From NCBI GenBank assembly GCA_002794775.1, contig NBAY01000012.1, positions 129,001 through 193,000 of the forward strand: 64,000 nt of DNA. Reading direction: 5' to 3'. Position 1 is the stretch's first letter; every line of letters begins with the position of its first letter. Below are positions 16,125 to 19,109 of the stretch, piece after piece. A program made the position numbers and the translations under genes. Origin of the DNA: Porodaedalea pini (Eukaryota; Basidiomycota; Agaricomycetes; Hymenochaetales; Hymenochaetaceae). Under the pieces are notes generated by a model that was not told the DNA's origin, did no database searches, and saw nothing but the letters and a program-made list of their open reading frames with translations.

Positions 16125-17858
16125 ATGTCCTCAACCGAGACGTACAGCGTCCTCTTCACAATACACCGCGCTGCCAATGTCCCTATCGCTGACTTCCACA
16201 ACCTCTCCGCCGACCCATACGTCCTCGCAACTCTCAAAGCGCCGTCTCGTCCACAACCGCCCGAAGAACCAAAACTGCGCTGGAGAACACCAACAGTGCG
16301 TGTCACGCGCGACCCTGTCTGGGAGGACCGCTGGATCGTTGGCGGCGTCCCGCAGGATGGATTCGAGCTCAAGCTGAGCGTCATCGACGAAGATTTGAAC
16401 GACCGCGATGACCGCCTCGGACGGGCAGTAGTGAACTTCACAAGGGAGATGATGCGTGAGGGGTTTGAGTTTAGCGAGCGCGAGTTCAAGGTCCAGAAGC
16501 GCCGCGGGAGCGTCGTGCCTTACGTGATGACATACGCCGTAGCGCTGCTTCCGGGGCAGCGCGTCAGGAAACACAACCGCGTCGTCCTTAGTGCGAAGGT
16601 CTTCGGCAAGACGAAGGATTCGAACGGCTTTCGAGTACACACCATAGGACCAAGTATGTACACTCTTAAATCTGAGTCCAAACTTTTCTCAATCCGAATC
16701 GTAGATGCATACACCCAGCACTTTTCACCGCTGATAGGCTCCGTCGTTAATCGACGAAATCATGCCACGAAGGGCCTCCCGAACCAAGAAACAGGCAATG
16801 CGAAAAAGCCTGCATCAGCATCCACCTTCGTAGCCTGCAAACTCCAACTAACGGGTCCAGTACCCAAGGAACTGCACCACCACTATGTTGGGTACAACTG
16901 GTTTATCAAGATGCTCTACGCCAGGCGAGGACTCTCAGGACGTTTACTCTTCCAGAGCCTGCGAAAGCAGTATCGCACAGTTTACTCGTATAATAAGAAT
17001 ACGCTGTACGGAATCATTGGAACTACGGAAGACGATAGTCCAAACCATGCGGAGGCGTCCACAGCTCCACAACGTTCCGAAGAAGACGAATCGCGCGCAT
17101 TCGCACAGGAGTTCCTCAAGATGACGAAGTTTGGAAGAGGTGCGCGCCTGCAGACGTACGTGCTCACGTTGGATGCGCAATGGCGCTTTTGCGAGACGGG
17201 AGATGAGTTCGCAATCGACTTTCTCAGCAAGCATATGATGCACGCGGACGGCGAGCAGATTGTTGCATACGCAGGCGAGTTCTTTGTACGGCGGATAGCG
17301 GCGGGATCGGGCGAGGGCGAACAGGAGCGCGCTGGCGAAGGCGGAGGAGATGCAGGAGAAGAGGGAAGAGAACAAGGGGAGGCCGACGACTTAAATGACG
17401 ACGACCCAGCGCACTACGAGCTCGTGATCGACAACGACTCGGGGACGTACCGCCCGCCGGAGTCTACGCTGCCGGTATTGCAGGCCTGGCTCGCGGACAA
17501 GCGGCGCCTTGGTGCACTCGGGCGCGTCACTACAATGCATTGCTTTGACGACAAGCTGCAAGCGCTAAAGAAACAGCGAAAGGAGCTTAAGAAGCGACTT
17601 GCGGGCGGGGAGCCGCAGAAGCGGCACCAGGCGAAGCGTGCTGGCTCGAGTGCCAGCAGCATGAGGGTAGACGGGCGCAAGTTGAACAGCGGAGAGGTGG
17701 AAAAGATCATTACTGAACACGAGCAAGAGAACGAGAAGCTATACAATGGGGAGGCAAATTTGCGCGGAGGAGAGGAGAAGGCGCACTCAGAGAAGGACAC
17801 GAAGAAAGACACACATGGATCTACGAAGACACCGCCCGATTCTGGTATCGATGTCTGA
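16125..17858 (+). CDS. C2-domain protein of unknown role
   Basis: Open over 577 codons. The N-terminal 130 residues look like a C2 domain (VLFTIHRAANVPIADFHNLS, DPYVLATLK, DRWIVGGVPQDGFELKLSVIDED), which suggests phospholipid and perhaps Ca2+ binding. The middle has a fungal-specific segment (YNWFIKMLYARRGLSGRLL, YRTVYSYNKNTLYG) and an ELVIDNDSGTY motif. The tail is charged and coiled-coil-like. A likely 51-nt intron at 16654-16704 (GTATGT...CGTAG) contains no stop and is a multiple of three; removing it gives about 560 aa. The segment resembles uncharacterised fungal C2 proteins I have seen, but I have no name for it. The upstream gap from RecQ is 233 bases. Confidence 0.75.
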   Translation: MSSTETYSVLFTIHRAANVPIADFHNLSADPYVLATLKAPSRPQPPEEPKLRWRTPTVRVTRDPVWEDRWIVGGVPQDGFELKLSVIDEDLNDRDDRLGRAVVNFTREMMREGFEFSEREFKVQKRRGSVVPYVMTYAVALLPGQRVRKHNRVVLSAKVFGKTKDSNGFRVHTIGPSMYTLKSESKLFSIRIVDAYTQHFSPLIGSVVNRRNHATKGLPNQETGNAKKPASASTFVACKLQLTGPVPKELHHHYVGYNWFIKMLYARRGLSGRLLFQSLRKQYRTVYSYNKNTLYGIIGTTEDDSPNHAEASTAPQRSEEDESRAFAQEFLKMTKFGRGARLQTYVLTLDAQWRFCETGDEFAIDFLSKHMMHADGEQIVAYAGEFFVRRIAAGSGEGEQERAGEGGGDAGEEGREQGEADDLNDDDPAHYELVIDNDSGTYRPPESTLPVLQAWLADKRRLGALGRVTTMHCFDDKLQALKKQRKELKKRLAGGEPQKRHQAKRAGSSASSMRVDGRKLNSGEVEKIITEHEQENEKLYNGEANLRGGEEKAHSEKDTKKDTHGSTKTPPDSGIDV

Positions 17859-17969: not shown

Positions 17970-19109
17970 CTATTCCTTTCCGGCGTCGTCTTGCAGAACT
18001 GTCGGGAGACCTGCTAGCTTCATCTTGACCCCGATCTCAAAGAGATAGTCCAAACACTACAGGGAGTAAGGAGTAAATCAAAAGGCATTCGAGTTAAGAA
18101 ATAATTCAATATACCTCCGTCTGTGTTTTCGCCTTTTGCCAATCAAGACCTGGTTGAAGCATTAGAAAAAGCTTTCGGGTCGTTGAAGGCACACGTACCC
18201 CAAACATAGATCCCATGCCTCCTTACCAGCACAGCAGCTGCATCAGGATACTCTTTCATCGCCTAGGAATCTCAGGTCAGCATTCTCATCGGGTATGAAT
18301 AGGCATTTTGTCTTCGTTCACCTCTGCCATACTGTCCTTCAAGTCCTCTTCGTTCGGCGTGTTCTCAATGATTGGAATGACAAGCGTGTCGAGGTATGAT
18401 AGGGCCGTTCCGGTTCCGGCTATGCGAAGACCTTTTATCATCTACGAAGGGATTAGATTTTTGTACAGCATGAAGGACGCGCATATAGTTTACCTCCTGT
18501 GATCAGCCAAATCATCAGCTCAGACACCAAGAAGATTTTTAAAAAAGCGCAAAACGCATAACAAGGCATAACAAACCTGATGTGAGATCCTAAATTCGCT
18601 GCCAGGCCATAAGAGCGTCGCCATAACCGCGTGCTGTGAATGGGTATGTATGCATGCGCCCGCGTCACGTAGGTCGAACGCATTCCAGAACAGAGGCGTG
18701 CAAGCGGACTCTTTGAGCGCTACGCGCGGACGGCGGAGGAAGACACGGTCCGCGTTAGGTGAAGGCTGTGGGTAAGGCAGAACGAAGATGTGCGAAGGCT
18801 CGATGCGCTCTTTCTGCACGCCGGAGGGCGCGATGTAGACGATGTCACTGTGGTAGCATAGAGATGAGTTAAGATAGAGAAAGGAAGGTGATAGGATGCA
18901 CGGTACCCTTCGCGTATGGTGATCCCGCCTCCTGTACCAGTGACCCACCCGAGCTGGTAGAATAGCCTGCAGAGCTCCGGGATCAGGTTTGCTGGCTGGC
19001 ACAGTGCGTATGTCAGCGACTTTGGACGTCTTCATACCGCGTGGTTGCGTACGTGATTGGGATCGGAGGACGTGATGAGGGCATCCTGGTTGGCATCGAC
19101 GGCGGCCAT
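17970..19109 (-). CDS. MDE1: Methylthioribulose-1-phosphate dehydratase (Mde1/APIP)
   Basis: Zinc enzyme of the methionine salvage pathway that dehydrates 5-methylthioribulose-1-phosphate; class II aldolase fold, cytosolic. Exons in order: 19109-19053, 18995-18907, 18847-18577, 18496-18494 (3 nt), 18441-18322, 18262-18199, 18149-18115 and 18056-17970. They total 241 aa, the length of animal APIP (about 242). Visible: [43 protein letters not shown] block, zinc ligands His116 and His118 in HTHS and His196 in RRHGIYVWG, and [13 protein letters not shown]. The Glu of HQE (residue 140, equivalent to the catalytic Glu139 of human APIP as I remember it) is supplied only by the 3-nt exon. Both flanking introns have normal signals (GTTTGT...TCACAG and GTAAAC...TCGTAG). 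It is divergent from ECM16 over 207 bases. Confidence 0.93.
18494..18496 (-). other. MDE1: Three-nucleotide microexon (GAG) of MDE1
   Basis: Sits between an acceptor ending CACAG and a donor GTAAAC. Without it, exons 3 and 5 would join in frame but lose the invariant Glu of HQEMIKG, and the intervening intron would be 135 bases rather than the usual 50-80. With it, two introns of 80 and 52 bases result, the second having TCTAATC near its 3' end as a plausible branch site. Confidence 0.8.

Follow-up and report, generated by a model that had tools for sequence, protein, structure and literature searches.

The MDE1 gene of Porodaedalea pini, found in the 64,000-nt stretch of contig NBAY01000012.1 analyzed here (the window), very probably contains a genuine and normally included exon of three nucleotides, the GAG at 18496-18494 of the minus strand. 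We consider it equally likely that this exon is old and common to much of the Agaricomycetes, that it is often mis-annotated and that its splicing is unregulated. Inclusion of GAG exactly repairs the near-invariant motif HQ-E-MIKG, and related fungi repeatedly show annotation failure at precisely this position.

The MDE1 gene and the gap between exons 3 and 5

MDE1, the gene for a methylthioribulose-1-phosphate dehydratase, is complete and lies on the minus strand, running from 19109 to 17970, with eight exons (Table 1, the final exon being counted through the stop codon) and a product of 241 amino acids. Its seven introns measure 57, 59, 80, 52, 59, 49 and 58 nt and all are of the GT-AG type. 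In a DNA search of the whole 53.3-Mb assembly the window locus was the single match, which ruled out a second copy or allele of MDE1.

Table 1. Features of the MDE1 locus in window coordinates.
Feature	Position	Strand	Length (nt)	Content	Basis
MDE1 exon 1	19053..19109	-	57	start codon at 19109	gene model
MDE1 exon 2	18907..18995	-	89		gene model and alignment to 4m6r
MDE1 exon 3	18577..18847	-	271	HTH (residues 116-118), ends in ISHQ	gene model and alignment to 4m6r
Aldolase_II match over the exon 3 region	18598-18852	-
MDE1 intron 3	18497..18576	-	80	GTTTGT...ATCACAG
MDE1 exon 4 (microexon)	18494..18496	-	3	GAG, Glu140	aligned with human APIP E139
MDE1 intron 4	18442..18493	-	52	GTAAAC...TCTAATCCCTTCGTAG
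MDE1 exon 5	18322..18441	-	120	first bases ATG ATA AAA GG (MIKG)
MDE1 exon 6	18199..18262	-	64	VRRHG	gene model and alignment to 4m6r
MDE1 exon 7	18115..18149	-	35		gene model and alignment to 4m6r
MDE1 exon 8	17970..18056	-	87	stop codon TAG included; stop after residue 241	end computed from exon lengths, bases checked

The initial annotation had placed the catalytic glutamate in the gap between exon 3, which ends in ...ISHQ at 18577, and exon 5, which starts with MIKG at 18441, and its description of this region was accurate. The gap at 18442-18576 is exactly 135 nt long, and the GAG at 18494-18496, with ...GATCACAG before it and GTAAAC after it, splits it into two GT-AG introns of 80 and 52 nt with a 3-nt exon between them, such that the glutamate becomes residue 140. 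The triplet had also been named as the sole source of this residue, and in a search for exons of up to 60 nt, with both flanking introns at least 45 nt long, it was indeed the only 3-nt exon that the gap permits. The single alternative candidate within that range, an exon of 25 nt, was rejected as frame-breaking. When the gap was shuffled with preservation of its dinucleotides, the arrangement AG-GA(A/G)-GT arose in 11 of 20,000 cases, and in 4 with a pyrimidine before the AG. Given how often the motif occurs in a 264-kb background of this genome, taken from both strands and not from introns only, 0.007 such arrangements are expected in the gap, or 0.003 with the pyrimidine.

Retention of intron 3 introduces an in-frame TGA, and retention of the 52-nt intron 4 shifts the frame. 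Skipping of exon 4 keeps the reading frame, as the initial annotation had stated, with both outer splice sites being GT-AG, and an annotation error at this exon is therefore silent. Splice sites were compared to a crudely inferred set of 78 introns from this genome with lengths of 45-80 nt, a small reference in which the donor of MDE1 intron 2 falls into the 0th percentile. On this scale the donors of introns 3 and 4 are ordinary (38th and 33rd percentile) and the acceptor of intron 4 ranks in the 79th percentile. The acceptor before GAG is weak, in the 1st percentile of the same crude set, and three other CAG acceptors of MDE1 are found in the 4th to 12th. Note that the reference was limited to introns of 45-80 nt, so that these scores cannot rule out a single intron of 135 nt. 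An earlier intron model with lengths of up to 160 nt was dropped as contaminated, with 70 AAG acceptors and a median length of 126.

Two reading frames of the plus strand flank the gene. An interrupted gene that extends from 19317 to at least 23014 is divergent from MDE1, with 207 bases separating the two presumed starts as read from the open reading frames, and presumably encodes a DEAH-box RNA helicase, which it resembles. On the other side, an unbroken open reading frame of 577 amino acids (16125-17858) is convergent with MDE1; its stop lies approximately 110 bases from that of MDE1, and its start resembles a C2 domain by eye. Further class II aldolase loci (L001-L008), some of them with a stop in the frame, are present on contigs C70, C90, C121 and C16. 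The aldolase pairs on C70/C90 and on C70/C121 score identically, which suggests that these contigs are duplicated or haplotypic.

The catalytic glutamate of the dehydratase

The MDE1 product is predicted to be a member of the methylthioribulose-1-phosphate dehydratase family (MtnB/MDE1/APIP). Against the family model TIGR03328, with a curated cut-off of 137.05, it scored 198.9 bits with the glutamate and 188.2 bits without it, and as the cut-off is passed even in the latter case the score does not decide on the microexon. Residues 16 to 231 align with human APIP (PDB 4m6r), and the zinc-binding histidines are conserved at the APIP positions in this alignment, in the HTH motif at 116-118 and in VRRHG. 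The assignment of the catalytic residue by spacing in the initial annotation agrees with this comparison to human APIP: Glu140 follows the second histidine of HTH (118) by 22 residues, the same spacing as in human APIP, and the alignment to 4m6r is ungapped there and pairs E140 with the catalytic E139. Counted from H115 and H117 in the human sequence, this distance makes the residue the counterpart of E139. The presence of a glutamate at this position depends on inclusion of the GAG microexon.

The human protein is the same enzyme (PDB 4m6r; PMC5008309, PMC6602929, PMC3532061), and in the accessible parts of these three articles a one-codon exon is not mentioned for APIP. According to the parts of PMC5008309 at hand, in which APIP histidine mutants are named, C97, H115 and E139 are essential for MtnB activity, and mutants of these residues failed to restore proliferation after APIP knockdown in a methionine-salvage test. 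The conserved glutamate is described as important in substrate deprotonation in the portion of PMC3532061 that we consulted. By analogy, Glu140 would have the role in the fungal dehydratase that E139 has in human APIP.

Gene models and transcript-like contigs of related fungi

Three protein searches, of which the best 120 of 3391, 4117 and 5016 matches were used, together yielded 137 different proteins. The 106 that come from NCBI records were classed as genome-derived; the other 31, from jgi/lgn sources, were classed as short contigs, with lengths of 924 to 4348 nt. The database searched was clustered at 90% identity and its representatives may favor the longer form, so that a less abundant isoform without the exon may have escaped notice. 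The nearest matches were Fomitiporia mediterranea and Sanghuangporus weigelae with 89% each. A weakly resolved tree was built from the window protein, all 31 contig products and 50 of the 106 genome-derived sequences; here the window protein groups with Fomitiporia, Sanghuangporus, Phellopilus, Coniferiporia and Phellinidium, a position that by itself points to Hymenochaetales. The Fomitiporia model reads HQEMIKG, and the one from Rickenella also contains the glutamate.

The matches listed include 82 genome models of Agaricomycetes that belong to neither Cantharellales nor Sebacinales. The junction holds E alone in 36 of them, the glutamate is exactly absent in 32, and the remaining 14 are otherwise altered, 12 with something else in place (a Q in five cases) and two with a disrupted junction that could not be parsed. 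In five of these 14, from Phellinidium, Jaapia, Mycena venus, Auriscalpium and Amylostereum, an E still stands directly after HQ or before MIKG. As evidenced by the alignment of the 82 models, the loss is an isolated one-column gap at E140 in 32 sequences, with a count of 2 for the next worst column; gaps of several columns at residues 75-78 occur in 7 to 9 models. The listed models without the glutamate span Hymenochaetales, Agaricales, Boletales, Russulales, Auriculariales and Sistotremastrum, with three taxa looked up for their placement in orders. The genome models listed for Cantharellales (10/10), Sebacinales (2/2) and Tremellomycetes (12/12) all retain it, and for the matches listed an altered junction in 46 of 82 models versus none in these 24 corresponds to a Fisher p of 1.3e-7.

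Several altered junctions seem to preserve traces of splice sites. A valine directly after HQ, as in Gymnopilus (VRG), Mycena crocata (VRR), Amylostereum (VRP) and Suillus (VK), would fit a GT donor following CAG, while the EVN of Jaapia and the EVC of Mycena venus would fit a GT donor following GAG; the window itself would read EVN from GAG GTA AAC. The model of Phellinidium reads ...LQE, which hints at a CAG acceptor before GAG. These remnants bear on a different view of the relatives, which does not question the microexon in the window but only how far it is shared: most other species would have a single intron beside the Glu codon, with a tandem acceptor at GAG-ATG that was miscalled. As GAG itself ends in AG, a sequence NAG-GAG-ATG could indeed drop one codon in this way. 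No GAG abuts the ATG in the window, however, where TTCGTAG precedes it, and valines after Q as well as after E are expected from GT donors on both sides of the codon. Moreover, 32 misses in one column in several orders fit poorly with a repeated choice of a weak GAG acceptor, and we regard this view as improbable.

Some models are observations in their own right. Amylostereum P0109 reads ...HFSWEMIKG, where the W before E is unlike an AG acceptor directly before GAG, so that the exon may differ in this species; a further departure is the EASGE of Auriscalpium. For Favolaschia claudopus four MDE1 models are listed (P0051, P0056, P0075 and P0117), on contigs of different length, three with the glutamate and one without. 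A scan of viral contigs with the Fomitiporia protein revealed no MDE1 DNA from relatives.

The products of the short assembled contigs among the matches listed contain the glutamate in 31 of 31 cases. These contigs were judged to be transcripts at the protein level, from their length and unbroken product, with the sample type unstated in the records. In our reading of the tree 24 of them are placed outside Cantharellales, Sebacinales and Tremellomycetes, and seven were set aside as belonging there or uncertain. The presence of the residue in 24 of 24 placed contigs compared to 36 of 82 listed models yields a Fisher p of 1.3e-7; the 12 contigs in well-supported groups with named members of the other orders alone give p = 2.3e-4, and the seven whose length demonstrably leaves no room for seven 45-nt introns alone give p = 0.005. 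In Pisolithus microcarpus the model P0081 and the product of a 927-nt contig, P0061, match over 234 residues, and the glutamate missing from P0081 is the sole difference; the residue is for this reason very probably present in the mRNA and lost by annotation. A second model, P0068, differs from P0061 only in a Q at the position of that E. As the models from P. microcarpus differ from the contig only there, the models without glutamate look like annotation failures, and we infer from the proteins that the microexon is present in other species.

Splicing, origin and significance of the exon

The one-codon exon is probably constitutive. Its two short flanking introns would be removed separately by the spliceosome through intron definition, presumably one before the other because three nucleotides would not seat both exon-side complexes at once, and the mature mRNA would then read CAG-GAG-ATG. 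The initial annotation had proposed that the exon could be dated by its relatives, and the comparison of proteins points to a probable origin after Cantharellales and Sebacinales split off, two early branching orders whose position the MDE1 tree does not resolve. The estimate is based on the failure at the junction, which spans Auriculariales to Agaricales but affects none of the 24 from Cantharellales, Sebacinales and Tremellomycetes. The exon would thus probably have been present in the ancestor of Auriculariales, Hymenochaetales, Russulales, Boletales and Agaricales; for Polyporales no name was recognized among the matches listed, and this order is unsampled. The exon is presumably retained because the enzyme would be dead without this codon, rather than for any regulation of its splicing.

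A combination of both elements, in which the one-codon exon with the catalytic residue goes back to an early ancestor of the majority of Agaricomycetes, some of which, at least, also make a minor isoform by skipping, its dead subunit dampening methionine salvage under particular conditions, seems to us very improbable. The proposal of the initial annotation that splicing of one codon switches the enzyme on or off found no support and is likewise very improbable. It would make GAG a cassette exon whose skipping leads to an in-frame, dead but foldable subunit that tunes methionine salvage, and the preserved frame and the GT-AG outer splice sites allow for this. A dead subunit could also have a role, since APIP mutants in C97, H115 or E139 without MtnB activity still stimulated proliferation and the activation of AKT and ERK, as stated in the accessible part of PMC5008309. 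Nevertheless, none of the 31 contig products listed lacks the residue, the models without it are explained as annotation failure, with an otherwise identical contig product that contains it, and the RNA fold over the microexon region is not unusual (z = +1.14). That a single intron of 135 nt is removed and the organism truly makes MDE1 without glutamate, with its activity lost or the enzyme compensated, is hardly credible: the models of the close relatives Sanghuangporus, Phellopilus and Coniferiporia do read HQMIKG or HLMIKG, but outside this residue the protein shows good conservation (89% with each of the two nearest matches), the Fomitiporia and Rickenella models have the residue, and a fitting GAG exon is present that shuffling of the gap so seldom produced.

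Microexons are reportedly part of a long-read re-annotation of Coprinopsis cinerea, and the MDE1 exon may already be contained in its supplementary table. Among openly licensed PMC papers we did not find a conserved one-codon exon that holds the MDE1 catalytic residue. It is already known, as far as the accessible parts of the sources go, that conserved and mis-annotated microexons of plants can be as short as 1 nt (PMC8831610) and that fungi have microexons (PMC11121469, PMC1184071). Those of plants, among them APC11 and VPS55 with their 1-nt exons, resemble the MDE1 exon in that they are tiny, conserved in a large clade and missed by annotation, and in the parts consulted (PMC8831610) their inclusion is mostly above one half and needed for the correct protein; the MDE1 exon, in contrast, is a whole codon for one catalytic residue, and it is fungal. 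The Xlr2 microexon of Trichoderma virens likewise affects protein function in a filamentous fungus, a group in which functional microexons were previously undescribed according to the abstract of that study, but Xlr2 is an ascomycete transcription factor with glucose-dependent inclusion in the excerpt available (PMC11121469), whereas inclusion in MDE1 seems constitutive. The P450 genes of the Agaricomycete Phanerochaete chrysosporium also have exons of very small size, and introns of 45-55 bp are frequent in them; within the accessible text (PMC1184071), the shortest exon reported there has 6 bp (two amino acids), in a large multigene family and with no catalytic residue singled out. The arrangement had been called rare in the initial annotation, a term to be taken with reserve, as a one-codon exon with this catalytic residue is apparently common to many Agaricomycetes.

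Among the matches listed, 46 of 82 public models of this sulfur-metabolism enzyme from Agaricomycetes other than those two orders, Cantharellales and Sebacinales, are altered at the catalytic junction, 32 of them lacking the residue, and work on such a protein expressed or modelled as annotated would probably concern a dead enzyme. Single missing columns at invariant residues could flag other hidden one-codon exons in fungi. The MDE1 exon itself provides a clean natural test of the spliceosome on a 3-nt exon between two short introns, as well as of how one-codon exons last over long evolutionary time.
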